Assembly: GCF_030499535.1 (NCBI RefSeq)
Contig: NZ_JASTLB010000001.1
Span: 4,650,001 to 4,714,000, forward strand
Origin: Streptomyces sp. TG1A-8
Lineage (GTDB): Bacteria; Actinomycetota; Actinomycetes; Streptomycetales; Streptomycetaceae
Length of the DNA: 64,000 nt
Direction of reading: 5' to 3'
The translations under genes and the position numbers were made by a program. This document shows positions 8,138 through 37,342 of this stretch, piece by piece. Positions within the stretch are counted from its first letter, which is position 1, and the number at the start of each line of letters is the position of its first letter. The notes under the pieces are model-generated. The model had not been told where the DNA came from. It did no database searches and saw only the letters and a list, made by a program, of their open reading frames with translations.

Positions 8138-8193
8138 ACCCCCTGGTCACCGGGGCGGGGAGCCGAAACGCCGGGGGCACGGGCCAAGGGCTG

Positions 8194-8584
8194 GTGAAAC
8201 CCCTCGCCCGGCTGCCGTGGTTCCTCGTGCCGGCCCTGGTGCCGTCGGCGGCGTGGGCCGCCCGGCTGGGCTGGGACCAGCACCGCGACGTGCGGCCCGA
8301 CGGCACGGCGGCCGGCCCGTACGAGGCGTGGCAGGTGATCGGACCGGTGCTGACCCTGCTGGCACCGGTGCACTGGGCGGCGTCCCGGCGCCACGTCGCG
8401 GGCGCCGGGCTCGGCACCGCGCCCGGCCGCACCGCCGCCGCCTGCTGCGACTGGCCGGACGACTCCAGCGGCCTGTTCCTGGCCGGCGCGGGCCCGGTCA
8501 CGAGGGGGGAGCCTCGCCGCCACGACCCTCGTCTCCACCGTGATCGCCGCCCGGCACCGGCACGGACGACGGACCGAAACGTGA
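8194..8584 (+). pseudogene. Small membrane-protein gene with a frameshift in a G run
   Basis: GTG 8194 (AAGGG upstream) begins MKPLARLPWFLVPALVPS and runs through hydrophobic segments to about 8505. There the run GAGGGGGGAG holds one base too many. The continuation SLAATTLVSTVIAARHRHG, ending in TGA 8582-8584, is in the next frame. Read through, the original frame would run on into the tRNA-Arg gene, which is not plausible. The restored protein would be about 129 residues with several membrane helices. I do not recognise the family. A homopolymer run is also where sequencing errors are most likely, so raw reads would decide. Confidence 0.68.
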
Positions 8585-8599
8585 CGCTGCGGCGGATGG

Positions 8600-8672
8600 C
8601 GCCCCCGGCAGGACTCGAACCTGCGGCCAAGCGCTTAGAAGGCGCCTGCTCTATCCACTGAGCTACGGGGGC
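8600..8672 (-). tRNA. tRNA-Arg (anticodon TCT)
   Basis: On the minus strand a complete cloverleaf is readable. The acceptor arms are GCCCCCG and CGGGGGC, the D arm is GCTCAGTGGATAGAGC, the anticodon loop CTTCTAA sits between GGCGC and GCGCT, and the T arm is GCAGG TTCGAGT CCTGC. The anticodon TCT reads AGA, a rare codon in such GC-rich DNA. CCA is not encoded, as is usual in Streptomyces. Confidence 0.96.
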
Positions 8673-8947
8673 CTGGTGCGGGACAAGGATAGAGCTCCCC
8701 GTTCCTTGGCCCTGTCGCTTCGCCTCCGTGGCTCGATGTGGAGGTTCGGTGAAGCAGTCCTGATAATCGCAGGCAGGTACGAATCGTGCATCACTTTTGG
8801 CCACCCGACGGCCCGGGTGTTGTGCACTCGTTATGCCTGGCCCGCGCCCGTGTCCCGGTCATCCCTTCCGCCCGTTGTGTTCCGTCGGCGCGCAGACATG
8901 TCCATATGCTTCAGAATTCCCCTAAAATTGGGCATTCTTCGCATGTG

Positions 8948-10549
8948 GTGACCTTGGACGTACGGCCTCAGCTGCTCGACACACTCTCCGCTCTGCGCGA
9001 CCGTGTTGCCGCCGCACGCTTTCCGCTGCCCCTGGCCGGGGCCCCACGCGCGCGTGCCAACCGCGACGAACTCCTCGCACAGCTCGACGACTACCTGGTC
9101 CCGCGGCTGCGGGCCCCCGAGGCACCGCTGCTGGCGGTCGTGGGCGGCTCCACCGGCGCCGGGAAGTCGACCCTCGTCAACTCGCTGGTGGGACGGCGGG
9201 TCAGCGAGGCCGGCGTGCTCAGACCGACCACCCGCACACCGGTCCTGGTCTGCCATCCGGAGGACCATCACTGGTTCAGCGGCGTACGGGTGCTCCCCGA
9301 CCTCACGCGCGTGTGGGTGCCCCACCAGGAGCAGGGCGACGACTTCCTGGCCCCCGGCGAGGATCCCGGGCGCATGCTGCGCCTGGAGACCGCCGACAGC
9401 CTCCCGCCCGGGCTCGCCCTGCTCGACGCCCCCGACGTCGACTCCCTGATCGCCGACAACCGCGTCCTCGCCGCCGAGCTGATCTGCGCCGCCGACATCT
9501 GGATCATGGTCACCACGGCCGCCCGCTACGCCGACGCCGTTCCCTGGCACCTGCTGCGCACCGCCAAGGAGTACGACGCCACCTTGGTGACCGTCCTGGA
9601 CCGGGTGCCCCACACCGTCCTGTCGGAGGTGTCGCGGCAGTACGGCGCCCTGCTCACCAAGGCCGGCCTCGGCGACGTGCCCCGCTTCACCGTGCCCGAG
9701 CTGCCCGAGTCGGCCTGGGGCGGCGGCCTGCTGCCCGCGACCGCCGTGGCGGCCCTGCGGACCTGGCTGGTCCAGCACGCCCAGGACCCGGCCGCCCGGC
9801 AGCGCGTCATGGCCCGCACGGCGCACGGCGTCCTCGACTCGCTGAAGTCGCGCATGCCCGAACTGGCCGGCGCCGCCGCCGCCCAGTACGCGGCCGCCCT
9901 GCGGCTGACCTCCGCCGTCGAGAGCGCCTACGACGGCGAGCACGCGCGGGCGCGGGCCCGGCTGCGGTCCGGGGCCGTGCTCGCCGGCGACGCCCTCAAA
10001 CGCTGGCGGGCCTTCCCGCTGGACTGCACCGCCGGCGAACTGCTCGACGCGTTGGTGGAGAGCCTGGCCGCGCTGCTGCTGTGCGCCGTCACGGCCGCCG
10101 ACGAACGCGTGGACGAGTCCTGGCGGCGCGAGCCCGCCGCCGACGCCCCGGGACTGGCCCGGGACCCGTCCGTGGAGGGCGCCGAGCACCGCATCGGGCT
10201 CGCGGTCCGGCGCTGGCGGCGCGAGCTGGAGGAGTACGCCGAGGACGAGGTGCGCGAGCTGGAACGCGCGGTCGCGCCCGACGCCGAGGCCGTCGCCGCC
10301 CTGGTCGCCACCGCGCTGCTGGGCGGACGCCGGGGACGCGCCGCGGGCGAGGGGCTGGCCGGACGGATCGGCGCCCACGGCGCGCTGCGGCTGCGCGACC
10401 GGGCCGAACGGCTGCTCACCGAGCGCGTCGACCGGGTCATGCACCGCGAACGCGAGCGGCGCCTCGCCCCGCTCGACGCCCTGGACGTGCACCCCGAGCC
10501 CCAGGCCGAACTCATCGCCGCGCTGTCCGTACTGCAGAAGGAGAGGTGA
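8948..10549 (+). CDS. dynA: Dynamin-like GTPase DynA
   Basis: The 533-residue protein has a dynamin/YfjP-type GTPase head and a helical stalk. The P-loop GGSTGAGKS lies at residues 66-74, the switch segment [18 protein letters not shown] follows, G3 is LLDAPDVDS, and the G4 region is TVLDRVP. No membrane helix is evident, so it is probably peripheral. In Streptomyces the DynA and DynB pair joins the divisome and stabilises FtsZ rings during sporulation septation. GTG 8948 is chosen (GTG 8945 is equally possible) because it begins the conserved [10 protein letters not shown]; an AT-rich TAAAAT lies about 20 bases upstream and no ribosome site is seen. DynB follows after three bases. Confidence 0.85.
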
Positions 10550-10552
10550 CCG

Positions 10553-23105: not shown

Positions 23106-24083
23106 ATGGGCGCCTACGACACGGAGATCGAGGGCCTCGCCGCCGAGGCGCGGGCCGCGCTGGTGCGCGAGATCGACGCCGACGGCGCCTGGGCCGCGGA
23201 CCCGGTGTGGCGGGAGGCGTTCGCCCGGGTGCCCCGGCACCTGTTCGTGCCCTACTACTACGTCGGGATCAGGGGCGGCTACGAGCGACGCTGGGGCGAG
23301 AGCCCGGACCCGGAGGCGCGCCGGCGCTGGGTGCGCGGCGCCTACGCCGACGTCCCGCTGGCCACCCGGCTGCGCGACGGCGAACTGCTCTCCTCCAGCA
23401 GCCAGCCCTCACTGATGGCGCGCATGCTGACCGCCCTGCGCGTCGCGGACGGCGACCGGGTCCTGGAGGTAGGCGCGGGCACCGGTTACAACGCGGCCCT
23501 GCTGGCCCACCGGCTCGGCGACGACGGCCTGGTCACCACGATCGACCTGGAGCCGGAGATCACCGAGTCGGCCCGGCAGCACCTGGCCGCCGCCGGCCAC
23601 CACCCGGCCGTCGTCACCGGCGACGGAGCGCGCGGGGTGCCCGAACGCGCCCCCTTCGACCGGATCATCGCCACCTGCGCGCTGCCCACGGTGCCGCGGG
23701 CCTGGCTCGCCCAGTGCCGTCCCGGCGCCCGCGTCCTGACCCCGCTCGCCACCGGCCTGCTCGCCCTCACCGTCCGGGACGCCGGGCACGCCGAGGGCCG
23801 CTTCCTGTCCACGGCCGCCTTCTTCGTGCCGCTGCGCGGCGAGGGCCGGGCGCGGCCGGACACCGTGTCCGTGGCCGGGCTGCCGGGCCGGGCCCGGGGG
23901 CAGGAGCCGTTCCACTTCCTGCTGGAGCTGACCCGGGGCACCCTGCCGGCCGAGGAGGCGTACGCGCTGTGGGAGCGCGAGGGGATGCCGGACCGCGAAC
24001 GGTACGGCGTCACGGTCGCCGGCGGGCGGGCGTGGGCCTGGCTGGACGACCCGGAGGGGCCGTGCACCTGGCCCCTGTCGTGA
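23106..24083 (+). CDS. PCMT-like methyltransferase (protein-L-isoaspartate O-methyltransferase family)
   Basis: A 325-residue SAM-dependent methyltransferase. The AdoMet loop VLEVGAGTGYNAALLAHRLG lies near residues 119-138, and SSSSQPSLMARML upstream matches the PCMT substrate-side motif. VVTGDGARGVPERAPFDRII follows. The C-terminal extension of about 100 residues is longer than in canonical PCMT and matches the actinobacterial 'methyltransferase, FxLD-type/PCMT-like' group, some members of which modify peptides. There is no precursor peptide gene beside it. TACTGT (23094-23099) stands six bases before ATG 23106, the leaderless pattern. Substrate not determinable here. Confidence 0.83.
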   Translation: MGAYDTEIEGLAAEARAALVREIDADGAWAADPVWREAFARVPRHLFVPYYYVGIRGGYERRWGESPDPEARRRWVRGAYADVPLATRLRDGELLSSSSQPSLMARMLTALRVADGDRVLEVGAGTGYNAALLAHRLGDDGLVTTIDLEPEITESARQHLAAAGHHPAVVTGDGARGVPERAPFDRIIATCALPTVPRAWLAQCRPGARVLTPLATGLLALTVRDAGHAEGRFLSTAAFFVPLRGEGRARPDTVSVAGLPGRARGQEPFHFLLELTRGTLPAEEAYALWEREGMPDRERYGVTVAGGRAWAWLDDPEGPCTWPLS

Positions 24084-24122: not shown

Positions 24123-25679
24123 TCAGCCCCGGCGGATCGTGATCGTCGTCCAGGCGCCGACGTGCACCCGGTCGCCGTCCTGCAGCGGCACCGGCACGAA
24201 CGGCTGGATCGGCTCGTCCGAGCCGTTGACCGTGGTGCCGTTCGTCGAGTTCTGGTCGACGACCGCCCAACTGCCGTCGGACTGCTGCACCAGCACCGCG
24301 TGCTGGTGCGAGACGCCCGGGTCCTCCGGCGGCACCGACAGGTCGATGTCGGGGGTGTCGCCGGTGGAGTGCCGGCGGCGGCCGATGGTGACCTGGGTGC
24401 CGGTGAGCGTGCGCTGCTGCTCGGGCGAGTAGGCGGGCAGGTTCAGACCCGCGGCCTCCGGACCCGAGCGCTGCATCATCGCCATGAAGTAGTCGCGGTC
24501 CGGGCCGATGGTCGCCGTCCAGGTGACCGGGCCCTGCCGGGCCCGCGGGAAGCCGGAGCCGGGCGGGGCCTGGGTCGCGCCGGGCTGCGGGTAGCCGTAG
24601 CCGCCCTGGGCGCCGGGACCGCCTTGCCCACCGGAACCGCCGTGCCCGCCGCGCCCGCCGTGCCCGGCGGACGACGGCGGGGGGAGCACCCAGTCGTCGT
24701 CACCGCCGCCGAAGGACGGACCGTCGGCCGGGGGCCGGCCGGTCTCCCGCGGGAAGGCGGGCGGTGCGGGCGGGCCGGACTGCCGGAACGCCTGCGGGGC
24801 GCCGTCGGCCGCACCGCCGGGACCGCCCGGCCCGGGCGGCGGGACGGTCCGGGAGGGGTCCGCCCCGAAGCCCGAGGGCTCACGCCCGAAGGGCGGCGGA
24901 GCGGAGTGCCCGCCGGGTCCCCCGGGTCCGCCGTAACGGCCGGAGTTCTGTCCCTGGCCGCCGCCGTAGCCGGGGGGTCCGCCGGGGCCACCCGGGCCGC
25001 CGGGGTTCCGTTCCTGACCGCCGCCGTAGCCGGGAGGGCCGCCGGGTCCCCCGGAGCCGCCGTGGCCGCCGAAGCCGTCGGGTCCCTGTTCCCGGCCCCG
25101 GCCGAAGTCCGGCGCGGGGCCGGAGGGCCGCTGCCCGCCGAAGCCGGACGGACCGTCCGGACCGCCCCGGCCCGGGGCGGTTTGCGGGGCCGACGGGCCG
25201 CGTTCCCCGGCGAACGGGGTGGGGCCGGACGGCTCGCCGCCGAAGGACGGGATCGGCTCGGCGGGCCGGTTCACCCGCGAGGGCCGCGAATCCTGGTAGT
25301 CGTACCCGTCACCGCCGCCGTAGGTCGTGCTCGGCGGCTGGAAGCGGGGCTGCGGCGAGCGCGGGGCCGCCGGGGTGTACGAGGTGGCCGTGTTGGTCAG
25401 GAAGTTCCACCGGCACTCCTCGCAGAAGGGCGCGCCGCCCTCGCGGGGCGTGCGGCACTGCGGGCACAGCTCCGGCTCCGCGCCGGGCACCGCCGACGGG
25501 TGCGGGCGCCCGCCGGGCCGGCCGCCGCCCGGGACGCCGGGGCCCGCGGGCGGCGGGAAGCCGTAGCCACCACCGGGCGGGGGCGGCGGGGGCGGAGGTA
25601 CGGCACCGGCCATGCGGTGACCGCAGACCTCGCACCAGTCGTCGGAACCCGACTGGTGTCCGTTCGGGCAGGTCGGCAT
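24123..25679 (-). CDS. FHA-domain protein with N-terminal zinc ribbons
   Basis: A 518-residue cytosolic protein in three parts. The first 100 residues hold two zinc ribbons (CPNGHQSGSDDWCEVCGH and CPQCRTPREGGAPFCEEC). Residues about 100-385 are a disordered Gly/Pro-rich linker with repeated GGPGGPPGYGGGQ-type units. The last 110 residues are a forkhead-associated domain: VTIGRRRHSTG, GVSHQHAVLVQ, QNSTNGTTVNG, the Arg/Ser/Asn set that binds phosphothreonine. As the last gene of the pknG cluster it is the obvious reader or substrate of that kinase, comparable in role to GarA/OdhI, but much larger and lacking an obvious N-terminal ETTS-like phosphosite. Confidence 0.88.
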   Translation of the reverse strand: MPTCPNGHQSGSDDWCEVCGHRMAGAVPPPPPPPPGGGYGFPPPAGPGVPGGGRPGGRPHPSAVPGAEPELCPQCRTPREGGAPFCEECRWNFLTNTATSYTPAAPRSPQPRFQPPSTTYGGGDGYDYQDSRPSRVNRPAEPIPSFGGEPSGPTPFAGERGPSAPQTAPGRGGPDGPSGFGGQRPSGPAPDFGRGREQGPDGFGGHGGSGGPGGPPGYGGGQERNPGGPGGPGGPPGYGGGQGQNSGRYGGPGGPGGHSAPPPFGREPSGFGADPSRTVPPPGPGGPGGAADGAPQAFRQSGPPAPPAFPRETGRPPADGPSFGGGDDDWVLPPPSSAGHGGRGGHGGSGGQGGPGAQGGYGYPQPGATQAPPGSGFPRARQGPVTWTATIGPDRDYFMAMMQRSGPEAAGLNLPAYSPEQQRTLTGTQVTIGRRRHSTGDTPDIDLSVPPEDPGVSHQHAVLVQQSDGSWAVVDQNSTNGTTVNGSDEPIQPFVPVPLQDGDRVHVGAWTTITIRRG

Positions 25680-25726
25680 GTCGGCGCTTCCCCCTCTCCT
25701 TCAGGGCCCTGCTTGGTCCAGCGATG

Positions 25727-27070
25727 TCATTTCTTCACACGGACGGTCTTCGTGGACCGGGTCTCCAGGGTCATCTCGTCGGCCTCGGCGACCTCGGCCT
25801 TCAACCGCACAGTACCCGTCGCGGCATCGACCACGTCCACCACCTTCGCAAGCAGTTTCGCAGTATCCGCGTTCCCCGAGGCGCCGGCGAGCTGGACCGC
25901 CCGCCCCAATTTGGCCGTCGCGCCATCGAAATCGCCCGCTTTGCGGAGGTCGATCCCCTGTTGGATGACCCGTGCCAGTTCGGCCTGCCCGGTGTAGTGG
26001 GCGACCTGGGGGTTCATGGAGGTCGAGGCCGCCACGTCGTCGGTCCACACGGCCCGTACGAGCCCCTGGGCGCCCAGGTCCTGCGCCGTTCCGCCCGGTT
26101 GCGGGACGACCAGCGAGACGCGCGCGGCGAGCATCTCCCGGCCGAGGCCGGCCGGCGGTACCTCGACGCACAGGTGGTAGTCGCGGGACTCGTCGCCCCA
26201 GGACCCGGTCGGGTAGTCCCCGGCGCGCGGTCCGGCCTCGGTGCGCCGGGTGGTCAACTCCTCCACGGAGGGCGCCACTTGTTTCACGAACCGGATGGTC
26301 GTGCCGACGGGCGTCCACACCCGCAGGGCGACGTCGGCGACCTCCTTGCCCATCGCCGCCTCCATCATCCGCGTGAAGTCGGCGGCCAGTCCCGCCGGGT
26401 CGGCGACGATGTCGGCGGTGCCGAGCAGCGCGGAGGCGATCGCTGTGACTTCTTTCACTTCCCAGTCGGTGCCCACGCCGCGGGCGTCGCAGGTGAACCG
26501 TCCGGCGCAGTCGTCCAGCGCGGCCCGCAGCGCCTGCGGCGACTCGTGCTCGTTGCGGCCGTCGGTGAGCAGGACGCCGTGCCGGATGGCGACGTCCGCC
26601 GTGGACAGCAGCCGGTCGGCCAGCCGCAGCCAGGTGCCGATGGCCGTGCCGCCGCCCGCGGTCAGCCGGTGCAGCGCCTGTTTGGCCTGCGCGCGGGTGG
26701 TGCCGTCGGCGACCGCGAGCCGCCCGCCGCCCGGATAGACCTCCCGGGCGGCGTGCGTGCCGCCGATCACCGCGAAGCGGACGTCGTCGCGCAGCGTGTC
26801 GATCGCGGCGGCGGTGGCGTCGCGGGCGTTGCGCATCTTCGCCGGCGGATGGTCCATGGACCCCGAACAGTCGACCATGAGGGCCACGGCGGCGGAGGGG
26901 CCGCGGCCCGCCGCGCGGCCGGGCGCGGGGGCGGCGGCGCCCAGGGTGCCGCCCCCGGCCGCCGTCACGGTGACGACGGCGTTGACCTCGTGGCCGCCTT
27001 CCGGCAGGTACTCGTTCTGGTAGACGTCGACCGAGAACCGCGGCGCGCTCGGCTTGGCGAAATTGGCCAT
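25727..27070 (-). CDS. VWA-domain protein (TerY-like)
   Basis: A 447-residue protein with a von Willebrand A domain at about residues 45-215. The metal-ion-dependent adhesion site is complete: DCSGSMD, the Thr in GGGTAIGTWL, and Asp in LLTDGRNEHES. The C-terminal half has a beta-rich segment and a helical end (AELARVIQQGIDLRKAGDF). There is no signal peptide. Cytosolic VWA proteins paired with a protein kinase and PP2C phosphatase form the TerY-P triad described in comparative genomics; the order here fits. ATG 27070 is preferred over ATG 27082 because GGGA lies six bases before it and nothing suitable lies before the other. Confidence 0.88.
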   Translation of the reverse strand: MANFAKPSAPRFSVDVYQNEYLPEGGHEVNAVVTVTAAGGGTLGAAAPAPGRAAGRGPSAAVALMVDCSGSMDHPPAKMRNARDATAAAIDTLRDDVRFAVIGGTHAAREVYPGGGRLAVADGTTRAQAKQALHRLTAGGGTAIGTWLRLADRLLSTADVAIRHGVLLTDGRNEHESPQALRAALDDCAGRFTCDARGVGTDWEVKEVTAIASALLGTADIVADPAGLAADFTRMMEAAMGKEVADVALRVWTPVGTTIRFVKQVAPSVEELTTRRTEAGPRAGDYPTGSWGDESRDYHLCVEVPPAGLGREMLAARVSLVVPQPGGTAQDLGAQGLVRAVWTDDVAASTSMNPQVAHYTGQAELARVIQQGIDLRKAGDFDGATAKLGRAVQLAGASGNADTAKLLAKVVDVVDAATGTVRLKAEVAEADEMTLETRSTKTVRVKK

Positions 27071-27214
27071 GCTCGTTCCCATCCCCCTCGGACACCCCGC
27101 CGGCGCGGGGCGGCGTGTGCGGGCGGACCGGTCCCCTCCGGTCCGCCGTGACTCCCCGTTCGTACGGCCCGTTCGTGCGCCTGCGCGTGCGGCCCGCGGC
27201 CGTCCGCCGCGGGC

Positions 27215-28516
27215 TCAGGCCGATCCTGCCCCCTGCGGCGGCGCCGGGAACGGCACGACCGCCACTGTTACGTTGTCGTGGCCCCCGCCGTCCAGGGCGT
27301 GCCCGACCAGCACCTGGGCGCAGTACAGCGGTCGCACGGCCGCGTCCACGGGGACGACCTCGGCCATCTCCTCGGCCGCCTCGGCGTAGTTCCACAGGCC
27401 GTCGGTGCAGACCACCACCACGCCGGGCCCGTCCGGCTTGAACGAGGCGGTGTGCGGCTCCAGTTCGTAGGCGTCCGCGCCGAGCCAGCCGGTGATCGCG
27501 TGGGCGCGCTCGTCGGCGTACGCCTCCGCCTCGCTCATCAGCCCGGCCGCCACCATCTGCGCGGCCCAGGAGTCGTCCTCGGTCAGCCGGGCCGCGGGCG
27601 CCGTGCGGTCGTCCGGCACCCAGTAGGCGCGGCTGTCGCCGACCCAGCCGACGACCAGCAGTCCCGGGGTGACGATCGCGCCGACGATGGTGCAGGCCGG
27701 CGCGTTCTGGTGCGGGGCCTGCTCCCGGGCCGTGGCGGGCTCCCCGGCCAGCGCGTCGACGGCGCGGGCGGCGGCGACGATCGCCTCGTGCATGGCCTGT
27801 TGCGGGTGGGTGCCGCGCGGCAGGGCGGCGAGCAGCAGGTCGCCGGCCGCCTGGGCGGCCGCCAGGGAGGCCGCGTCGGGGCGGGTCGCCGAGGACACGC
27901 CGTCGCAGACGATCGCGAGGTCGGCCGGGGCGCCGTCGGGCAGCACGGCGTGGCCGACGCTGAAGGCGTCCTCGTTGCGGTGGTGGCGCAGGCCTCGGTC
28001 GCTGACGGCGGCGACCGGCCCCGACTGCCGTTCCACGTGGTCGCGCTCACGGGGCTGGGCGTGCCCGCAGTTCTCGCAGTAGCCGTCGCCGTCCACCCGG
28101 CCCGACCGGCAGGCCACGCACAGCGTGCCGGCACCGGCCGGTTCGGCGGGACCGGCGGCGGCGCGCAGGTCGGGCGCCGGGAGCGGGTAGTCGTCGGGCT
28201 CCGGGGCCCGGTCGAAGCGCACGCCGGGGGCGGGCTCGGCCGTGGGCAGCGGGGAGCCGCCCGAGTCGGTGCCGGGCAGGTCGGTCGGCAGGTGCGCGGG
28301 CGGTGCGGGGGAGCCGGCCGGCTCGGCGGCGGGCCAGTCCCCGCCGTCCCCGGGGGCGGGGGAGCCGGTCATGGTGAGCGTCGGGTGGTCCCGCGGCGCG
28401 GCGGGCACGACGGAGAGGTCGTGTCCGCACGCTCCGCAGAACCGGTCACCCGGCTCGAACGGCTCCGCGCAGTTCGGGCACTGCGGCCGTGCGGCCTGCT
28501 GGGGCATCTGCGACAT
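27215..28516 (-). CDS. PP2C-family serine/threonine phosphatase with zinc ribbons
   Basis: A 433-residue protein. Two zinc ribbons lie N-terminally (CPNCAEPFEPGDRFCGACGH near 14-32 and CVACRSGRVDGDGYCENCGH near 133-152), separated by a Pro-rich linker. The PP2C catalytic domain follows from about 165: SDRGLRHHRNEDAFSV, VCDGVSSATRPDAAS, GWVGDSRAYW, CTDGLWNY and GGHDNVTVAVV, so the metal-binding aspartates are present. It should dephosphorylate Ser/Thr substrates of the neighbouring PknG-like kinase. ATG 28516 begins three bases after the kinase stop. The VWA gene follows after 144 bases. Confidence 0.92.
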   Translation of the reverse strand: MSQMPQQAARPQCPNCAEPFEPGDRFCGACGHDLSVVPAAPRDHPTLTMTGSPAPGDGGDWPAAEPAGSPAPPAHLPTDLPGTDSGGSPLPTAEPAPGVRFDRAPEPDDYPLPAPDLRAAAGPAEPAGAGTLCVACRSGRVDGDGYCENCGHAQPRERDHVERQSGPVAAVSDRGLRHHRNEDAFSVGHAVLPDGAPADLAIVCDGVSSATRPDAASLAAAQAAGDLLLAALPRGTHPQQAMHEAIVAAARAVDALAGEPATAREQAPHQNAPACTIVGAIVTPGLLVVGWVGDSRAYWVPDDRTAPAARLTEDDSWAAQMVAAGLMSEAEAYADERAHAITGWLGADAYELEPHTASFKPDGPGVVVVCTDGLWNYAEAAEEMAEVVPVDAAVRPLYCAQVLVGHALDGGGHDNVTVAVVPFPAPPQGAGSA

Positions 28517-28519
28517 CAA

Positions 28520-31000
28520 CTACACCCACGTCCGGGGGCGGTAACGGTTGGCCCGTTCCACCAGCTCGATCCTCTCCACACCGCCGGGCGCCAGCCGGGC
28601 CAGCGTGCGGTACGCGCGCTCCAGGCCGAAACGCAGACCGCGCTCGTCCAGACCGCTGCCCAGCAGCACCCGTCCGCCCACGGCGGGCCGGGAGGCGTCC
28701 CGGCCTGTGGAGAGTATCCAGTCCAGCGCGCAACCGAGCACTTCGACGGACAACTGCTCGCGGCGCGCCGGGTCCAGACCGTACGCGTCCAGCGCCTCCA
28801 CCTGGCCGGCGGCGGCGGTCACGTCGTCCAGGAACGGTACGTCGCCGGCGCCCGCCGTGCGCTGCCGCAGCCGGGCCCGGACGGCCGCGACCCGGGCGGC
28901 CGTGTAGTGGATGGAGGACTCCGGCACCGACTCCAGCGTGCGGACGGCGCCCGCCCGGTCCCCGGCGGCCAGCCGCACCCGGGCGAGCCCGAACGCGGCG
29001 CTGACGAAGCCCGGGTCGGTCGCCCACACCAGGTGGTAGTAGCCGGCCGCGTCGTCGAGCCGGCCGAGCACCTCCGCGCACAGGCCGAGCGCCAGCTTGG
29101 GCGCGGTCTCGCCGGGGAAGGCGTCGTGGACCGCGTCGAAGGCGGGGGCGGCGCCCGCGAAGTCGCCGGTGGCCAGGGCGGCCACGCCCCGGTGCCACAC
29201 CACCCGCCAGTCGTCGGGCCGCTCCTCCTCCAGGGTGCCCAGGGACATCAGCGCGACCCCGTGGTCACCGGCCTCCAGCCGGGCGCGGACCTGCCGCAGC
29301 CGGGTCTCGACGGTGGGCGCGGGCACCGCGTCCAGCGCGCTGACCAGTTCGGCCGGCGCGGAGGCCGGCAGGCCCGCGAGGAAACCGGCGTCGGGGTCGT
29401 CGGGGTCGACCAGCGGGGCCGGCAGGGCGAGGGCGGCGGCGGCCGTGTCGACGGGCCTGACGAGGGCCGGCGGGAGCGGGGCGGGGGCGGCCGTGCCGGT
29501 GCGGGGCCGCCGCGCCCCCAGCCGGGACACGTCCCCGTCCAGAGGGGGGAACAGCTCCGTGTCGGTGGCCTTGACCTCGGGCCCGAACAGCGTCGACAGC
29601 GCGGGCCGCGGCCGGCCGGTCTGCAGGGCGACGACCTCGCGCAGCACCCCGGTCAGCTGCTCGGCCATCTCCTGCGCGGAGGCGAACCGGCGGGCCGGAT
29701 CGGGGTCGGTGGCGCGCACGAGGAGGCGGTGGAAGGACTCGTAGCGGCGGAGGACGTCGACGGTGTCCGGGTCGGGCAGGCGGTCCGCGAAGACGTTCGT
29801 GTAGCCCTGGAAGTCGAAGGTGAGCACGGCGAGGGTGCGGCCCACCGTGTACAGGTCGCTGGCCACCGACGGGCCGGCCCCGGCGACCTCGGGCGCCTGG
29901 TAGCCGACCGTGCCGTAGATCGCCGACTCGTCGTCGTCCATGCGGCGCACGGCGCCCATGTCGATCAGCTTGAGCTGGTCCCCGGTCTGGATGGCGTTGT
30001 CGACCTTGAAGTCGCAGTACAGCAGGTTCCGGCTGTGCAGGTGGCCGAGCGCCTCCAGGGCCTCGATGCCGTACGCGCACGCCTGTTCCACCGGCAGCGG
30101 GTCGCGGCGGCCTTCGGGGGTGCGGCGGGCGTTGGCGATCTCCCTCAGCGACCTGCCGCCGACGTACTCCATCACGATGTAGCCGTCGAGGGAGCCGGTG
30201 CGCTGGTCGAGGTGCTCCACGAAGTTGTAGATCCGCACGATGTTGGCGTGCTCGATCTCCGCCAGGAACCGCCGCTCGGAGATCGCGGCGTCCATGGCGT
30301 CCTGGTCGCCGGTGTCCAGCAGGCCCTTGAGCACCACCCACCGGTCGGACACGGCGCGGTCCACGGCGAGGTAGATCCAGCCGAGGCCGCCGTGCGCGAG
30401 GCAGCCCGCGACCTCGTACTGGCCGTGCACGACGTCCCCGGCCCGCAGCTTCGGCACGAAGGAGTACGGGTGGCCGCACTCGGTGCAGAAGCCTTCGGTG
30501 CGCCCGGGGCGGTCCCCGCGCGCCCGGCCGACCGGCGCCCCGCAGTCCGACCGCGAACAGAAGCGCTTGCGCTCCGGCACCTCCGGGTTCTCCAGCACCA
30601 TCGCGCGCGGGTCGGGCCGCGGCACCTGCGGCACCGTGACCAGCCCGGCGCCCAGCCGTCCGCGCGCCGGGGCACCGGAGCCGGAGCTGCGCACCGACAC
30701 CGAGCGGCCGGTGGACTTCCCCGACTGCGCGCGCGACAGCCGCCCGGGGAGCGAGCGCCGGGACTGTGACTGCTGTGACCGCTGTGTCGGCTGCGACTGC
30801 TGTGTCGGCTGCGACGAGGTGCGCGCGCCGCCGGGGCGCGCCGATTCCCTGGTGATCCGGGTGGGCGGTGAGCCGACCGTCCCGTTCGCCGAGACGACCG
30901 GTGCGAGCCCGCAGGTGTCGCAGTACAGCTCACCGCCGCCGACGTCCTCGTACGTCCCCCCGCACTCCGGCCGCTGGCAGGGCTGCCGTGCCTGGCTCAC
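28520..31000 (-). CDS. pknG: Serine/threonine protein kinase PknG
   Basis: An 826-residue multidomain kinase. A zinc ribbon (Cys8, Cys13, Cys27, Cys30) and a rubredoxin-like site (Cys148, Cys153, Cys172, Cys175) precede the kinase domain. That domain has the Gly loop at 200-210, Lys225, catalytic Asp330 and Asn335 in YCDFKVDN (non-RD, no HRD Arg), and Asp347 in DMG replacing DFG, as in mycobacterial PknG. The C-terminal 350 residues are TPR-like helices. In mycobacteria PknG phosphorylates GarA and controls glutamate/2-oxoglutarate flux. GTG 31000 overlaps the upstream stop (GTGA). The frame continues upstream to 31348 but that part is a shadow of the upstream gene. Confidence 0.93.
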   Translation of the reverse strand: MSQARQPCQRPECGGTYEDVGGGELYCDTCGLAPVVSANGTVGSPPTRITRESARPGGARTSSQPTQQSQPTQRSQQSQSRRSLPGRLSRAQSGKSTGRSVSVRSSGSGAPARGRLGAGLVTVPQVPRPDPRAMVLENPEVPERKRFCSRSDCGAPVGRARGDRPGRTEGFCTECGHPYSFVPKLRAGDVVHGQYEVAGCLAHGGLGWIYLAVDRAVSDRWVVLKGLLDTGDQDAMDAAISERRFLAEIEHANIVRIYNFVEHLDQRTGSLDGYIVMEYVGGRSLREIANARRTPEGRRDPLPVEQACAYGIEALEALGHLHSRNLLYCDFKVDNAIQTGDQLKLIDMGAVRRMDDDESAIYGTVGYQAPEVAGAGPSVASDLYTVGRTLAVLTFDFQGYTNVFADRLPDPDTVDVLRRYESFHRLLVRATDPDPARRFASAQEMAEQLTGVLREVVALQTGRPRPALSTLFGPEVKATDTELFPPLDGDVSRLGARRPRTGTAAPAPLPPALVRPVDTAAAALALPAPLVDPDDPDAGFLAGLPASAPAELVSALDAVPAPTVETRLRQVRARLEAGDHGVALMSLGTLEEERPDDWRVVWHRGVAALATGDFAGAAPAFDAVHDAFPGETAPKLALGLCAEVLGRLDDAAGYYHLVWATDPGFVSAAFGLARVRLAAGDRAGAVRTLESVPESSIHYTAARVAAVRARLRQRTAGAGDVPFLDDVTAAAGQVEALDAYGLDPARREQLSVEVLGCALDWILSTGRDASRPAVGGRVLLGSGLDERGLRFGLERAYRTLARLAPGGVERIELVERANRYRPRTWV

Positions 31001-32286
31001 GCGTGCTCCCCCCTCCGGTCCTCCGGCCCCCGTTCCTGCGGCGGCCGCGGGGGGCCGAGCGCCTCGGCCACCGCCTGCTGGTAACGCAGCACGGCCTGTT
31101 CGGCCACCCGCAGGTCGCACGGCGCGCTCCACAGCATGCGCCGGGCCGCGTCGTACCGCTCGGCCAGCAGCGGGTCCTCGGCCAGCCCGTGCCGGGCGAC
31201 CTTCGCCCGGTAGGCGTCCAGCCGGCCGCGCAGCTCGGCGCGGACCGCGAGCGGCGCGGTGACCGCGGTCAGCGACTCGCGGGCGCGCACCAGTTCGTCC
31301 TCGGCCTTCCGCTCCAGGGACTCCAGGAGCGGGGACAGACGGTGCCACTGCCCCTGCCGCCGGTACTCGGCGGCCGTCGTCAGCTGCTCCTGCAGCACGG
31401 TCGGCGGTCCGCCGACCACCGGCACCCTGGTCGCCGCGATCTTCGCCAGCACCTCCCCGCGCGCGGCGCGCGCCTCGGCGAGGGTGCGGTCCGCGCGGGA
31501 GAGCACGTCCCGCAGCCGGATCAGCCGCGCCTCGGCGTCCTGGCGCACGGTCAGCACGGCGTCGATCTCGCGCCGCACGTCCTCCAGGGCGCGTGCCTCG
31601 CGGTCGTACACCGTGGTGTCCGGACGGCCGCCGCCGGGCGCCGAACTGCCCTCGGCCGGCACCCAGTGGGCCAGCGGGTCGGAGACGACCTCCTCGCGCA
31701 GCCGGGTCAGCGTGCGGGTGATGCGCTCCAGGTCGTCACCGGCCGGATGCTCGCCGGGGCGCACGCCGACGGAGTGCGCGAGCCTGCGGGTGCGCTGCAG
31801 TTCCGCGGCGAGCAGATCGATCCGGGCGGGCAGCGCCGACCAGACGGCGTCGGCGGCGACGACCGTGTCGAGGCTCGTCGCGTACAGCTCGTTCATCCGG
31901 TCCACCAAGGCGGCCAGCGAGAAGCTCTCGCTGAGGACGCCGTCGCCCGGGAGCGTCACCGACTCGCCGCGCAGCAGCCCGGTCAGCTCCGCCAGGTCCT
32001 CGCGACTGGACCAGCGGCGCCGGGCGCGGATCCCCCGGGCGGTGCGCAGCGCGGCCGTGTACGCGTCGAAGCAGGTCCACAGCAGGGTGATCGACGCCTC
32101 CGTGGCCGCCCAGCGGTCCTTGGTGACGCCGGTCAGTTCGGCCCCTTCGAGGAGCCTGCGGCCCGCGTGGTCCTGGAGGGCCAGCAACGAGGTCTCGATG
32201 GCCTCGTGCTCCTGGCCGAGCCGTGCCAGCGCCCGGTCCACCTCGTCCCGGTCCATCACCGGCCCGGCGGGGTCCGTGACGCCCAT
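30997..32286 (-). CDS. Unknown helical protein between glnH and pknG
   Basis: A 429-residue, strongly helical, charged protein with no membrane segment, cysteine motif or recognisable enzyme domain. Long amphipathic stretches (DREARALEDVRREIDAVL, LIRLRDVLSRADRTLAEARA, LERKAEDELVRARESL) suggest a coiled coil or helical bundle. ATG 32286 follows GAGAGGTGATCG. Its stop overlaps the pknG start (GTGA), so it should be made in step with the kinase. It is absent, as far as I recall, from the mycobacterial glnX-glnH-pknG locus. An adaptor between the membrane sensor and kinase is a reasonable inference, not a demonstrated function. Confidence 0.85.
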   Translation of the reverse strand: MGVTDPAGPVMDRDEVDRALARLGQEHEAIETSLLALQDHAGRRLLEGAELTGVTKDRWAATEASITLLWTCFDAYTAALRTARGIRARRRWSSREDLAELTGLLRGESVTLPGDGVLSESFSLAALVDRMNELYATSLDTVVAADAVWSALPARIDLLAAELQRTRRLAHSVGVRPGEHPAGDDLERITRTLTRLREEVVSDPLAHWVPAEGSSAPGGGRPDTTVYDREARALEDVRREIDAVLTVRQDAEARLIRLRDVLSRADRTLAEARAARGEVLAKIAATRVPVVGGPPTVLQEQLTTAAEYRRQGQWHRLSPLLESLERKAEDELVRARESLTAVTAPLAVRAELRGRLDAYRAKVARHGLAEDPLLAERYDAARRMLWSAPCDLRVAEQAVLRYQQAVAEALGPPRPPQERGPEDRRGEHA

Positions 32287-32387
32287 CGATCACCTCTCGC
32301 TGCTGTGTGGTTGGCCTGGGTCGTGGTCGGGCTCGGGGTTCCGGTCGGGGGCGGGGTCGGGGTCGGCGGCGGGTGCGCGCGGCCGGG

Positions 32388-33437
32388 TCAGCTCGTGCGC
32401 ACGTACTGCGGCGCGGGCGGCTCGGAGGGTCCCGAGTCCTTCCCCAGTGTCGCCGACAGCCACTTGTCGTACGACGCCTGCCAGCCGTCCGCGCGGTAGT
32501 CCACCAGGATGCGGTTGACCCGGCGTACCAGATCGGACGCCTTCTTCTCCATCGCCACGCCGTAGTACTCGGTCGTGAACGCCGCGCCCTTCAGCTCGAC
32601 GGTCGGGTCCTGGGCCGCCTGGCTCGCCGCGAGCGCGCCGTCGGTGACCACGGCGTCGGCCTCGCCGAGCTGCAGCCGCACCAGGCAGTCGAGCTGGCTG
32701 GGGACGGTGACGGAGATGTCGGCGGAGGCGGGCAGGACGCCCGCCTTCCGGTCGGCGGCCAGCTTGGCGTGCGCGGTCGAACCGGCCGCCGTGCAGATCC
32801 GCTTGTCCGCCAGGGAGCCGTCGTAGCCCGTGACGGACGACGACTTGGGTGCGAGGACCTGCTGTCCGGTCTTGAAGTACGGCGCGGAGAACGCCACTTC
32901 CCGCAGCCGGTCGCAGGTGATGGTCATCGTGCGCACCACCATGTCGACCTGGCCGCTCCGGATCGCGAGGATGCGCCGGTTGGTCGGGATCGCCCTGAAC
33001 TGCACCGCGTCCGGGTCCCCGAGGATGTCCTCGGCGATCCTGTGCACCAGGTCGATGTCGAAGCCCTCCAGCCGCGCGCCCGGGTTGTTGGGGTCGCGGT
33101 ACCCCCAGCGGTAGCTGTTCTGGTCGACGCCCACGACCAGCTTGCGCCTGTCGCCCGTACGGGCCTTGATGGCGTCGATCGTCCTCCCGTCCGCGCCGGA
33201 CGGGGGCGGCGTCCGCCGCTGCGCGTCCGCGTCCTCGCAGGCGCCGGCCCGTGCCTGGCTGCCGTCGGCCGCTCCCGGGACGCCCGTGCGGACGCCCTCG
33301 TGCCGGGCCTGGGTGTACGGCAGCAGCAGGACGAACGCCAGTGCCAGCGCACACAGGACCGCCATCGCGCCGACCCCGCCCCAGCCCCGCAGGGAGGCCC
33401 GCGCACGTGCCGCGTACATCGTCATGTCCCCACTCAC
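32388..33437 (-). CDS. glnH: Amino-acid-binding protein GlnH, membrane-anchored
   Basis: A 349-residue periplasmic-type binding protein of family 3. An N-terminal helix at about residues 22-41 (VGAMAVLCALALAFVLLL) lacks a lipobox cysteine, so it is a membrane anchor rather than a lipoprotein signal. The solute-binding domain covers about 95-335 (KLVVGVDQNSYRWGYRD, LEGFDIDLVHRIAEDILG, SGQVDMVVRTMTIT, EADAVVTDG). In mycobacteria GlnH binds Asp/Glu and reports through GlnX to PknG. No ABC permease or ATPase is nearby, which supports sensing instead of transport. GTG 33437 overlaps the glnX stop (GTGA). Confidence 0.87.
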   Translation of the reverse strand: MSGDMTMYAARARASLRGWGGVGAMAVLCALALAFVLLLPYTQARHEGVRTGVPGAADGSQARAGACEDADAQRRTPPPSGADGRTIDAIKARTGDRRKLVVGVDQNSYRWGYRDPNNPGARLEGFDIDLVHRIAEDILGDPDAVQFRAIPTNRRILAIRSGQVDMVVRTMTITCDRLREVAFSAPYFKTGQQVLAPKSSSVTGYDGSLADKRICTAAGSTAHAKLAADRKAGVLPASADISVTVPSQLDCLVRLQLGEADAVVTDGALAASQAAQDPTVELKGAAFTTEYYGVAMEKKASDLVRRVNRILVDYRADGWQASYDKWLSATLGKDSGPSEPPAPQYVRTS

Positions 33438-34858
33438 CGGTACTCCGAAAGCCTGCGGCCGATGCCGGCCACCGCGCCCGCCGCGCCGAGCACGGCGAGG
33501 ACCACGGCACCCGCGGCCAGGCCGGTCATCGCGCCCCGCCCGTCACCGGCGGCCCGCTCGAACTCGGCCTGCTCGTGGTCGATGGCCCGGGCGAGACGGC
33601 CGTCGACGCCGTCGAAGCACGCACCGGTGGCGCCCTCGGCACCGATGACCTTGTCCAGCGCCTGCTGGTAGTTGCCTTTCTCGTCCTCGGCGCGGGCCGC
33701 GGCGTGGCGCCGCTTCCACACCGCCATGTCGCCCTCGGCCGCCTCCACCGGCCGCGCGCCCGCCCGGTCGTCGGCGAGCCGGTCCGCCTCGCGCAGCCTC
33801 TCGCCCAGCACGGCCATGTACTTGTCGAAGTCGTAGTAGTAGGCGTCGTGCGCCGTGCCGTCGACCGTCACGGTCTCCGCGCCGCGCGCCACCAGGCTGA
33901 GGTTCTCGTTGCCGCGCGCCTTCAGGGAGGCGATCCGGGCGTCGTGCAGGACGTTCAGCGACCGGATGCCGTGGTCGTAGGAGCCGTCGAGGCCGGACCT
34001 CGCGACCGTGTGCCCGACGACCAGCCACAGCAGGGCCGCCGCGGTGGCGGCCGAGGCGGCGACCAGGCCGTGGTTCAGGACGCGGTTGGTGCGCCGGTAC
34101 TCGCGGCGCTGGGCCCAGCCCAGCGCGGCCAGGGCGAGCACGCCGAGCGCGATGGCCGCCCACGGGTACGGCGTCGCGCCCCCGTAGTCGGCGCCCAGCC
34201 GCCGGTTCTCCTTCTGGTACAGGTCCTCCGCCGCCGGGAGCATGTCCCGCTGCATCTTCTCGTTGGCGTACCGCAGGTACGCGCCGCCCACCGGATAGCC
34301 CTGCCGGTTGTAGGTGAGGGCGCGCTCGACGAGCCCCTTGTACTCCGGCAGCAGCCGGTTCAGCCTGGTGATCGTCGCCTCGGAGGCGGAACCGGGCTCG
34401 GCGTTCGCGGCGGCCTTGACCAGCCCCGCGGCGGCCGTGCGGATGTCCTCCTCGTAGCGGTCGCGGGACGCGGCGGTCTCCTGGCCCCCCGCCAGGAACC
34501 CGCTGGAGGCCGCCGTGTTGGCGTCCGCCAGGGAGCGGTAGATCCCGGCCGCGCCGGAACTGAGCGGCCCGCTGCTGTGCAGCACGTCGTCGGCGGCGGC
34601 CGACCGCTGCGCCGTCTGCCAGGCGGTGACCGCGCCGAACGCGACGACCAGCAGGGCCAGTACGGCCCCGATGGTCCGCAGCCGCCCCGGCTCGGTGACC
34701 GCGGCGGCCCGCAGCCGCTCGGCGCCCTCGGCGAAGGCGGTGCGCCGGGGAGCCACGGGTACGCCCCCGCGCGCGGGCGGCCCGGCCTGTGCGGGCACCA
34801 CGGCCGGTGCACCACCCGCCACCGGTGGCGCGGCGCTGCTCTTCGGCGGGTGTGTCAC
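33434..34858 (-). CDS. glnX: Membrane sensor protein GlnX
   Basis: A 474-residue protein with four membrane helices (about 58-78, 226-246, 255-277 and near the C-terminus, GLAAGAVVLAVLGAAGAVAG) and two extracytoplasmic helical loops, the layout of mycobacterial GlnX (Rv0412c type). Loop one carries SGPLSSGAAGIYRSLADAN, reminiscent of four-helix sensor domains. It lacks a HAMP, kinase or methyl-accepting domain, so a signal must pass through partner proteins. GTG 34858 follows GGGGGAGGTCGA. It heads the minus-strand cluster glnX-glnH-unknown-pknG-PP2C-VWA-FHA. Confidence 0.83.
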   Translation of the reverse strand: MTHPPKSSAAPPVAGGAPAVVPAQAGPPARGGVPVAPRRTAFAEGAERLRAAAVTEPGRLRTIGAVLALLVVAFGAVTAWQTAQRSAAADDVLHSSGPLSSGAAGIYRSLADANTAASSGFLAGGQETAASRDRYEEDIRTAAAGLVKAAANAEPGSASEATITRLNRLLPEYKGLVERALTYNRQGYPVGGAYLRYANEKMQRDMLPAAEDLYQKENRRLGADYGGATPYPWAAIALGVLALAALGWAQRREYRRTNRVLNHGLVAASAATAAALLWLVVGHTVARSGLDGSYDHGIRSLNVLHDARIASLKARGNENLSLVARGAETVTVDGTAHDAYYYDFDKYMAVLGERLREADRLADDRAGARPVEAAEGDMAVWKRRHAAARAEDEKGNYQQALDKVIGAEGATGACFDGVDGRLARAIDHEQAEFERAAGDGRGAMTGLAAGAVVLAVLGAAGAVAGIGRRLSEYR

Positions 34859-35063: not shown

Positions 35064-36086
35064 TCAGCCGCCCGGACGGCGGCCGGTTCCGCCGGGCCCG
35101 GGCGGCGCGGGCCGGGCGGGCTCCCAGTGCGCGCGCGCCCGCCGCCGGGCCCCGGCGCCCGCGCCCAGCCGGTCCAGGCCGAGCAGGGCCGCGCCCAGCA
35201 CCGGGCTCGCCGTGACCACCCGGACGTGCGCCCGGGGGGCCCGGGAGGACATCAGCGCGCGGATGCCGCCGTCCAGCCGGGGATGGCCGGCGGCCAGGAC
35301 GCTGCCGCCCAGGAGGACCGGGGTGTCCTCGGCGAGGAGGTCCAGGCGGGTCAGGGCCACCGTGGCCATCGTGGCCACCTCCTCGGCCAGCCGGTCGACG
35401 AGCGAGCGGGCGACCGGGTCGCCGCCGGCGGCCGTGGCGAACAGCACCGGGGTCAGCTCGTACCGGCGGGCGTGCCCGATGCGGCGCAGGTGCAGGGCCT
35501 CGATCAGGGCGTACATGGACGGCAGGCCGAAGTGCGCCGGGAGCGCGCGGGCCAGTGCCGTGGGCGCGCCCCTGCCGTCCTCGGCGCGGGCGGCGTGCCA
35601 CAGCGCCTCCTCGGCCAGGGCCCAGCCGCCGCCCCAGTCGCCGGAGACGCGGCCGATGGCGGGGAAGCGGGCGGTGCGGCCGTCGGGGCGCATGCCGACG
35701 CAGTTGATGCCGGCGCCGCACACCACGGCGACGCCCCGGGGTTCGGCCACGCCCGCGCGCAGGACGGCGAAGGTGTCGTTGCGGACCTCCACCGACGCGC
35801 CCCAGGCGCGCGCGTCGAGGGCGGCCGCCAGCCCCTCCTCCTCCACCGGCAGGTTGGCGTTGGCCAGGCAGGCCGAGACGTGCGCGGCACGGGCCACGCC
35901 GGCCTCGGCGAAGGCCCGCGCGACCGGGCCGGCCAGGGCGTCCACCGCCTGCTCCACGCCCACCGCGGGCGGGCGGAAGCCGCCGCCGCGGGCCGTGGCC
36001 AGGACCTCCCCGCCGGCGGTGACCACGGCCACGTCGGTCTTGCTGTTGCCCGCGTCGATGGCGAGGACGGTCGGGGTCAGGCCCAC
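35064..36086 (-). CDS. csnK: Sugar kinase CsnK (BadF/BadG/BcrA ATPase family)
   Basis: A 340-residue kinase of the ASKHA fold. The phosphate-1 loop AIDAGNSKTDVAVVT is at the N-terminus, phosphate-2 is VAVVCGAGINCVG, and the adenosine loop is VLLGGSVLAAG. GRVSGDWGGGWALAEEALW is typical of N-acetylglucosamine-kinase-like members. In the csn operon it is expected to phosphorylate glucosamine released from imported chitosan oligomers. The last 40 residues are a Pro/Arg/Gly-rich tail. GTG 36086 lies inside the end of csnH (10-base overlap). Assignment of the sugar is by operon context. Confidence 0.85.
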   Translation of the reverse strand: MGLTPTVLAIDAGNSKTDVAVVTAGGEVLATARGGGFRPPAVGVEQAVDALAGPVARAFAEAGVARAAHVSACLANANLPVEEEGLAAALDARAWGASVEVRNDTFAVLRAGVAEPRGVAVVCGAGINCVGMRPDGRTARFPAIGRVSGDWGGGWALAEEALWHAARAEDGRGAPTALARALPAHFGLPSMYALIEALHLRRIGHARRYELTPVLFATAAGGDPVARSLVDRLAEEVATMATVALTRLDLLAEDTPVLLGGSVLAAGHPRLDGGIRALMSSRAPRAHVRVVTASPVLGAALLGLDRLGAGAGARRRARAHWEPARPAPPGPGGTGRRPGG

Positions 36087-37342
36087 GCGAGGTGCTCCCG
36101 GTTGTGCGCGACCAGCCGGTCGGCGAGGGCGTCGGCGTACGCGTACTGGCCGATCAGGGGGTGGGCGAGCAGGGCGCGGAAGACCCGGTCCCGGCCGCCG
36201 CGCAGCGCCGCCTCCAGGGCCAGGTCCTCGTAGGCGGTCACGTTCGCCATCAGGCCCGCGAACAGCGGGTCGACCCCGGGCACCGGCAGCGGCACGGGTC
36301 CCTCCGGGCCCACCGACGCCTGGACCTCGATCACCGCGTCGTCGGGCAGGAACGGCAGCGTTCCCCGGTTGCGCGCGTTCACCACCTGGTACGGGCTTCC
36401 GGCACCGCCCAGCAGGGCCGCCGCCAGGTCCACCGCCGCCTCCGAGTAGAAGGCGCCGCCCCGCTCGGCCAGCAGTGCCGGCTTCTCGTCCAGGGCCGGG
36501 TTGCCGTACATCCGGAGCAGCCGCCGCTCCATCTCGGCCACTTCCGCCGCCCTCGACGGCTTGGTGCGCAGTTCGCGGACGACCTCGTCGTGCGCGTAGT
36601 AGTAGCGCAGGTAGTAGGACGGGACCGCGCCCAGGCGGTCCAGGAGGGGGCGGGGCAGGCGCAGGTCGCCGGCGACGGCGTCGCCGTGCTCGGCCAGCAG
36701 TGCGGGCAGGACGTCGGCGCCCCCGGGGCCGCCCAGGCGGACGCCGGTCTCCCAGGTGAGGTGGTTCAGGCCCACGTGGTCCAGGTGCACCTCGCGCGGG
36801 CCGGTGCCGAGCAGGGCCGCGAACTTGCGCTGCAGGCCGATCGCCACGTTGCACAGGCCGACCGCCCGGTGCCCGGCCCGGAGCAGGGCGCGGGTGACGA
36901 TGCCGACCGGGTTGGTGAAGTCGATGATCCAGGCGCGGGGGCTGGCCCGGCGGACCCGTTCGGCGATGTCCAGGACCACCGGGACCGTGCGCAGCGCCTT
37001 GGCCAGGCCGCCCGCGCCGGTCGTCTCCTGGCCGACGCAGCCGCACTCCAGGGGCCAGGTCTCGTCCTGCTGCCGGGCCGCCTGGCCGCCCACCCGGAGC
37101 TGGAGCAGCACCGCGTCGGCGCCGTCGGCTCCGGCGTCCAGGTCGGCGGTGGTGACGATCCGGCCGCCGTGGCCCTGCCTGGCGAAGATGCGGCGGGCCA
37201 GCCCGCCCACCAGCTCCAGGCGTTCGGCGTCCGGGTCGACCAGCACCAGTTCCTCGACGGGCAGGATGTCCCCGAGGCGGGCGAAGCCGTCGACGAGTTC
37301 GGGGGTGTAGGTCGAGCCTCCGCCGACCACGGTGAGTTTCAC
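36077..37342 (-). CDS. csnH: Family 4 glycoside hydrolase CsnH
   Basis: A 421-residue NAD- and metal-dependent glycosidase of family GH4. The N-terminal dinucleotide loop is VVGGGSTYTPELVDG, the 3-oxidation site area is CGCVGQETTGAGGLAKALR, and the metal ligands are Cys in VGLCNVAIG and His in HVGLNHLTWE. Arg and Tyr of YYLRYYYAHDEVV are also typical. GH4 enzymes cut 6-phospho- or free alpha/beta-glycosides by a redox-elimination route. In the csn operon the likely substrate is chitosan-derived glucosamine oligomers or their phosphates. ATG 37342, seven bases after csnG. Confidence 0.9.
   Translation of the reverse strand: MKLTVVGGGSTYTPELVDGFARLGDILPVEELVLVDPDAERLELVGGLARRIFARQGHGGRIVTTADLDAGADGADAVLLQLRVGGQAARQQDETWPLECGCVGQETTGAGGLAKALRTVPVVLDIAERVRRASPRAWIIDFTNPVGIVTRALLRAGHRAVGLCNVAIGLQRKFAALLGTGPREVHLDHVGLNHLTWETGVRLGGPGGADVLPALLAEHGDAVAGDLRLPRPLLDRLGAVPSYYLRYYYAHDEVVRELRTKPSRAAEVAEMERRLLRMYGNPALDEKPALLAERGGAFYSEAAVDLAAALLGGAGSPYQVVNARNRGTLPFLPDDAVIEVQASVGPEGPVPLPVPGVDPLFAGLMANVTAYEDLALEAALRGGRDRVFRALLAHPLIGQYAYADALADRLVAHNREHLAWA

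Follow-up and report, generated by a model that had tools for sequence, protein, structure and literature searches.

The locus described here raises the question of whether a sensor, a kinase, a phosphatase and a phosphopeptide-binding protein encoded side by side in Streptomyces sp. TG1A-8 work as one signalling unit, or whether a known amino-acid-sensing pathway has merely acquired neighbours. The window, meaning the whole stretch of 64,000 nucleotides that was analysed (NZ_JASTLB010000001.1, positions 4,650,001 to 4,714,000), belongs to a Streptomyces chromosome of 7.66 Mb (G000). At 24123-34858 it contains seven consecutive open reading frames (ORFs) on the minus strand, in the transcript order glnX, glnH-like, an unnamed gene for a helical/coiled-coil protein (cc), pknG, and genes for a PP2C phosphatase, a VWA protein and an FHA protein; the ORF calls bear out the row of seven genes described in an earlier, sequence-only reading. 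In Corynebacterium and mycobacteria, GlnX and GlnH are known to act on PknG (PMC9769921, PMC6069109), and the conservation of GlnX, GlnH, PknG and GarA in Streptomyces has already been published (PMC6069109). No description of a linkage of PP2C, VWA and FHA genes to pknG was found in the open-licence literature, itself partly accessible, although Fig. 2B of PMC6069109, a STRING operon view, may show some of the neighbours.

The linkage of the seven genes is conserved and strongly supported, and the block can be regarded as a little-described extension of the known pathway. Loci were collected with the VWA protein as query, and the best 80 of 570 confirmed loci (78 from Streptomyces, 2 from organisms named Actinobacteria bacterium) were compared. 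Since these loci were picked by their VWA gene, the other six genes provide independent evidence of linkage: PP2C was found in 80 loci, like VWA itself, FHA in 78, pknG in 76, glnH and cc in 74 each, and glnX in 73, every missing gene lying past a contig end as read from the locus lengths. A sample of 148 genomes of the class was searched as well, with 14 control genomes alongside. PknG_TPR (E<=1e-10) and GlnX (E<=1e-5) were each detected in 46/148 genomes, 45 of them common to both, and VWA_3_C (E<=0.001) in 35/148; the controls gave 1, 2 and 0 genomes, respectively. The class sample contains 41 places with VWA_3_C, 30 of which are located within 5 kb of pknG, where about 0.1 would be expected by chance on a rough estimate.

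Gene neighbourhoods were read in 58 PknG-centred stretches, and around the second PknG of the same chromosome, using iterated profiles of the seven proteins (E<=1e-5). Among the 35 PknG genomes outside the family labelled f4 (window included), 29 hold at least six of the seven genes and 23 hold all seven: 12 in f1 (the Streptomyces rows, with the window), 6 in f16 (Frankiaceae), 4 in f15 and 1 in f22. In one of the f15 genomes counted as holding all seven (L196) the VWA match covers only profile positions 234-330. Six more genomes (four of f22, one of f11 and one of f15) are complete but for a detectable cc; in the loci of f22 and f11, glnH and pknG lie approximately 1.1 kb apart, which would leave room for a diverged copy. 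Two loci are cut by contig ends (f23 G023, which also gave no GlnX match, and f15 G033), and in f1 G134 the pknG, VWA, glnX and glnH genes are in pieces. That sensor, kinase, phosphatase and FHA genes occur as a group, as noticed earlier, is borne out, and linkage in other genera, on which that proposal had been made to depend, is present across several families.

The residues taken as active-site positions in PknG, PP2C, the VWA protein and the FHA protein are kept in nearly all rows; fragments were removed before counting. The catalytic Asp, the Asn and the metal-binding Asp of PknG are invariant in 134/134 rows and the ATP-site Lys is found in 133, with one gap. The metal-site Asp residues of PP2C are kept in 112/113 rows (one gap), the residues of the metal ion-dependent adhesion site (MIDAS) of the VWA protein are intact in 115/115, and among the phosphopeptide-contact residues of the FHA protein the Ser and His are found in 43/43 rows and the Arg in 41/43. 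In the window itself glnX, glnH and pknG belong to one operon-like block. Tight junctions through pknG and PP2C had been claimed, and three of the four hold, with overlaps of 4 bases for both glnX/glnH and cc/pknG and 3 bases between pknG and PP2C; the fourth is a glnH-cc gap of 101 bases. Farther on, PP2C and VWA are separated by 132 bases, and VWA and FHA by 47. A promoter/terminator scan of the locus returned zero sites, such a scan being uninformative in a GC-rich host.

Table 1. Genes of the block, with positions in the window and best profile matches (aa, amino acids; TPR, tetratricopeptide repeat)
Gene	Position	Strand	Length	Product and evidence
glnX	33434..34858	-	474 aa	GlnX-family transmembrane signal transducer; NF058618 485 bits (cut-off 250)
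glnH-like	32388..33437	-	349 aa	family 3 solute-binding protein; SBP_bac_3 6.6e-26
cc	30997..32286	-	429 aa	unnamed helical/coiled-coil protein; no Pfam/NCBIfam match
pknG	28520..31000	-	826 aa	PknG_TPR 2e-86, PknG_rubred 1.1e-30, Pkinase 1.5e-24; N-terminal zinc ribbon (Cys motif)
PP2C	27215..28516	-	433 aa	PP2C phosphatase; PP2C_2 3.4e-13, NF033484 4.2e-29; two N-terminal zinc ribbons (Cys motif)
VWA	25727..27082	-	451 aa	VWA protein; VWA_3_C 2.7e-22 (tail), VWA_2 3.4e-9; intact MIDAS
FHA	24123..25679	-	518 aa	FHA protein; C-terminal FHA 7.8e-17, residues 430-508

Some of the matches fall under model cut-offs: GlnX reaches 170.6 bits with the equivalog for protein kinase G-activating GlnX (NF041460, cut-off 780), and PP2C has a Stp1-like match below its cut-off. 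The FHA protein begins with two zinc ribbons (Cys motif), followed by a long Gly/Pro-rich linker of low complexity and the FHA domain. The block is flanked downstream by an isoaspartate-methyltransferase-like gene (23106-24083, plus strand) and upstream by a minus-strand gene (35700-36830) with a weak BadF/BadG-type match, below cut-off.

We read the block as one dedicated extracellular-nutrient phospho-switch comprising sensor, kinase, eraser and reader, and would give this reading a probability of roughly 0.55. Starting from the observed genes, their linkage through rearrangements and their intact active-site residues, we infer a series of protein-protein steps, a ligand and an output that might be as follows. 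GlnH, positioned on the outer face of the membrane, would bind an amino acid, and GlnX would convey this signal through the membrane to cytoplasmic PknG, at its TPR part, with cc probably acting as an adaptor. PknG would phosphorylate threonines of its partners, the FHA protein would bind the phosphothreonines and gather the complex, and PP2C would reset it, while the VWA protein might be a metal-dependent scaffold or a substrate. The likely metabolic output would be GarA, which is encoded elsewhere with an ETTS site.

The part given to cc, between GlnX and PknG, is a guess. The protein has zero Pfam or NCBIfam matches up to E 0.1. It has 2674 relatives at E<=0.001 among 7997 scored candidates, and those bearing names, among the 120 listed, are called 'hypothetical protein' or 'coiled-coil domain-containing protein'. 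Its AlphaFold2 model (mean predicted local distance difference test score 87.9, predicted template modelling score 0.68) is mostly helix, and a comparison with PDB folds gave nothing at E<=0.001 (best 0.32).

The genes have also remained together when their order changed. In f15 the glnX-glnH pair is placed after fha (four loci with all seven genes). PknG was found in 19/296 genomes of the phylum, and in the only one labelled outside the class glnX-glnH, on one strand, are convergent with cc-pknG-pp2c-vwa-fha on the other. The presence of the genes together through three layouts argues for a shared function. Another possibility is that this is the plain GlnX-GlnH-PknG-GarA pathway, and that PP2C, VWA and FHA form a separate neighbouring unit merely present on the same transcript. 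Three genes suffice in f4, where 11 of the 13 PknG loci (11 PknG genomes) read glnX-glnH-pknG and 2 have pknG alone, and where PP2C, VWA and FHA were seen within about 10 kb of pknG in 0/11 genomes (13 loci); besides, the genome encodes a GarA-like protein that has ETTS, and in f15 and at L319 glnX-glnH are separable from pknG-pp2c-vwa-fha. We nevertheless consider a separate unit unlikely, as in all three seven-gene layouts pp2c-vwa-fha follow pknG with the sensor genes within 10 kb, and pknG and PP2C all but touch. The family f4 itself fits Mycobacteriaceae, to judge by its gene order and its GarA score; the lone pknG genes (L190, L191) are second copies in two f4 genomes, no glnX/glnH being found nearby.

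Several loci deviate in ways of their own. In the Streptomyces locus L240 (G134:C25:40492-60292) the PP2C, cc and FHA profiles are matched over near full length and the other four genes are fragments, due to decay or assembly error. In the Frankiaceae loci L234 and L232 pknG is flanked on both sides by a glnX-glnH pair, of which the second is encoded on the opposite strand. Near another pknG (L233:3216-5939) a protein of 908 amino acids combines TIR, Ser/Thr kinase and NMT1-like binding domains.

It had been supposed that two themes, GlnX/GlnH sensing and a kinase-phosphatase-VWA set, were fused at this locus. Instead, the block occurs widely, and the three genes of the mycobacterial type are probably a reduced version of it. 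In PknG trees of 57 rows and, smaller, of 30 rows, f4 forms a single clade (100/100) that lies among the families with seven genes, and their root parts the PknG2 paralogues from other PknG (92/98 and 100/99); this root is a midpoint and the PknG2 branches are long, so the direction of change is to be read with caution. G320, of another class, was dropped as a rooting outgroup, its PknG falling inside the tree beside f16/f22/f11. In f1, four of the five PknG2 loci have a VWA gene and no PP2C or FHA was seen in them, and trypsin proteins beside PknG2 (L091, L237, L238) contain a cc-type C-terminal match. The trees, and the VWA gene and the cc-type match at PknG2 loci, favour loss in f4, which probably shed the missing genes, leaving a cut-down version.

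One of these PknG2 loci is in the same genome as the window (L091, G000:C1:1594000-1613000). At 4154-12475 it encodes a trypsin-cc fusion, PknG2, a VWA protein with a C-terminal zinc ribbon, a GlnX-like membrane protein and a family 1 binding protein, and thus looks like the same chassis with a different sensor, of family 1 instead of family 3. Family 1 solute-binding proteins are also encoded near pknG and VWA at L233:12898-14304 (f16 G049) and L238:12528-14021 (f1 G050).

Zinc ribbons recur on proteins of the block. They were called by Cys motif only (a regular expression), Pfam ribbon matches being below cut-off (for PP2C of the window, DZR 26.8 bits against 27.3). An N-terminal four-Cys ribbon is found on PknG in 15/17 sequences of f1 (the two misses are fragmentary), 7/7 of f15, 5/5 of f22 and 1/1 of f11, and in 0/1 of f23 (a cut sequence) and 0/13 of f4. 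It is clear in 4/15 sequences of f16, where the alignment has the first three Cys in 10/15; the fourth position is Cys in 4 rows and Thr in 5. Both checked Cys of the second PP2C ribbon are present in 113/113 rows; those of the first are less frequent, as many rows begin later. A ribbon is visible on most FHA rows. GarA carries one at its N-terminus in 56/70 sampled sequences (L001:907-1737 and L249-L318), own genome included, and the 14 lacking it comprise every f4 sequence (11) plus a single one from each of f22, f23 and f32. The GarA ribbon was rejected as an indicator that the seven-gene block is present, since it also occurs in PknG-free families of the sample (e.g. f14, f19, f24). A docking role shared by the ribbons of PknG, PP2C, FHA and GarA is our guess from the motifs.

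The FHA protein of the block was considered as a GarA counterpart, and this was rejected: it scores 24.3 bits with the OdhI/GarA model NF041660, compared with 188.5 bits for a GarA-like protein encoded 1.2 Mb away, at 5.91 Mb. The two share the FHA domain and an N-terminal zinc ribbon, but the cluster protein is longer, has the low-complexity linker and, inspected by eye, no ETTS-type phospho-site ahead of its FHA domain. The GarA-like protein has the ETTS site and falls under the curated cut-off of 200 bits; 15 of the 148 genomes have GarA-like proteins past this cut-off. The gene beside it resembles, by eye, a MerR-type gene.

Phosphorylation at ETTS has been reported in Saccharopolyspora (PMC12321487). 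An alternative would be that the block acts mainly on development or secondary metabolism instead of on GarA, the VWA protein being the effector and PP2C and FHA tuning parts. VWA_3_C is mostly beside pknG (30/41 places), the f1 PknG2 loci that keep VWA (4/5) without PP2C/FHA suggest that kinase and VWA may be the core, and GarA responds to PknB besides PknG (PMC12321487). The retention of ETTS in GarA, in 12/12 sampled f1 genomes and in the own genome, speaks against this alternative, and we judge it improbable.

The reading of the block as a single nutrient switch has its own difficulties. Away from pknG lie 11 of the 41 VWA_3_C places; f15 G104 is without VWA and FHA beside PknG, f16 G075 without cc, VWA and FHA, and f16 G049 without PP2C. 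GarA-like proteins occur in 142/148 genomes (E<=1e-30), far more than the 46 with PknG, so GarA is not dependent on PknG. No common phospho-docking motif was seen in the N-terminal stretches of PknG (rows of the smaller tree). In cells, finally, phospho-GarA is reported to withstand phosphatase, although GarA is a substrate of recombinant PstP in vitro (PMC6554272), and in C. glutamicum Ppp reactivates OdhI (PMC9769921). PstP and Ppp are described as general phosphatases, and the PstP gene belongs to a cell-wall and division locus; a dedicated PP2C would be of interest whether or not phospho-GarA resists.

As to the signal, the best PDB match of the window GlnH is M. tuberculosis GlnH (6h1u, 3.2e-43), in which Arg147, Thr162 and Trp232 contact the ligand side chain, and Asp/Glu specificity has been predicted within Actinomycetales (PMC6069109). 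The Arg147 equivalent is kept in 125/125 GlnH rows and that of Thr162 is kept in the window (Asn in 5/5 f22 rows). The Trp232 position holds Trp in 11/11 f4 rows, Gln in 86/86 Streptomyces rows (11 of f1 and 75 covering the window and the named loci, two of which are titled only Actinobacteria bacterium), Tyr in 6/6 f15 rows and further residues in the remaining families; at the Asp250 contact, 6/16 f16 rows have Thr or Asn. The exchange of Trp232 for Gln makes Asp/Glu uncertain as the ligand of Streptomyces GlnH. The GlnH-like protein of the window has an N-terminal hydrophobic stretch, and a simple lipobox pattern was not seen in its sequence; the same pattern, which is no proper lipoprotein predictor, occurs in 5/11 sequences of f1 (inside the hydrophobic stretch), 10/11 of f4, 9/16 of f16, 5/5 of f22, 1/1 of f11 and 0/6 of f15.

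Compared with the GlnX-GlnH-PknG-GarA/OdhI pathway, the locus has the GlnX family protein, the family 3 GlnH-like protein, PknG with rubredoxin, kinase and TPR parts and, elsewhere in the genome, GarA with ETTS; it differs in four extra genes (cc, PP2C, VWA, FHA), the N-terminal ribbon of PknG and the GlnH pocket. The adjoining VWA, PP2C and Ser/Thr kinase genes with zinc ribbons also resemble TerY-P, defined as VWA, PP2C and a kinase fused C-terminally to a zinc ribbon (PMC11090510). Membership of this triad, as suggested earlier, was rejected on ribbon position: the window kinase has its ribbon at the N-terminus and ends in PknG_TPR (to residue 824/826). Moreover, PP2C and FHA bear ribbons too and a membrane sensor is encoded alongside. 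A kinase-PP2C-vWA set has been linked to GAP1-N2 systems in actinobacteria (PMC7159879), whereas the kinase here is PknG with its own membrane sensor. Besides VWA_3_C and general VWA models, the window VWA protein matches one NCBIfam model, far under its cut-off, and nothing in PADLOC. Defence islands are patchy in distribution, whereas VWA_3_C and PknG_TPR are each found in 13/13 f1 genomes. VWA, PP2C and kinase sets do occur in defence systems (PMC11090510, PMC7159879), but a TerY-P-like conflict (anti-phage) module built on PknG is very improbable and assignment as a defence system was rejected, as PADLOC models at E<=0.001 match none of VWA, PP2C, FHA and cc, and the 25 listed matches to PknG are all inside its kinase part (residues 168-514).

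The dedicated nutrient switch thus remains our preferred reading of the block. Extended to other families, and more tentatively, it may be that PknG, in most sampled families having it, is part of a self-contained membrane-linked switch (sensor, transducer, adaptor, writer, eraser, VWA scaffold and reader) whose parts are joined by a zinc-ribbon code common to PknG, PP2C, FHA and GarA. The mycobacterial pathway would then be a remnant minus four genes and the ribbons of PknG and GarA, and the chassis would take different binding proteins, so that different nutrients could drive the switch. The mycobacterial Asp/Glu ligand should not be carried over to Streptomyces unexamined. PknG has been studied heavily, yet in the organisms used for this work its gene is accompanied by neither a phosphatase gene nor one for a second FHA reader. 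The seven-gene form, present in antibiotic producers that are harmless and genetically tractable, offers a list of candidate partners for the connection between GlnX and PknG, the off-switch of the signal and the role of the VWA protein.

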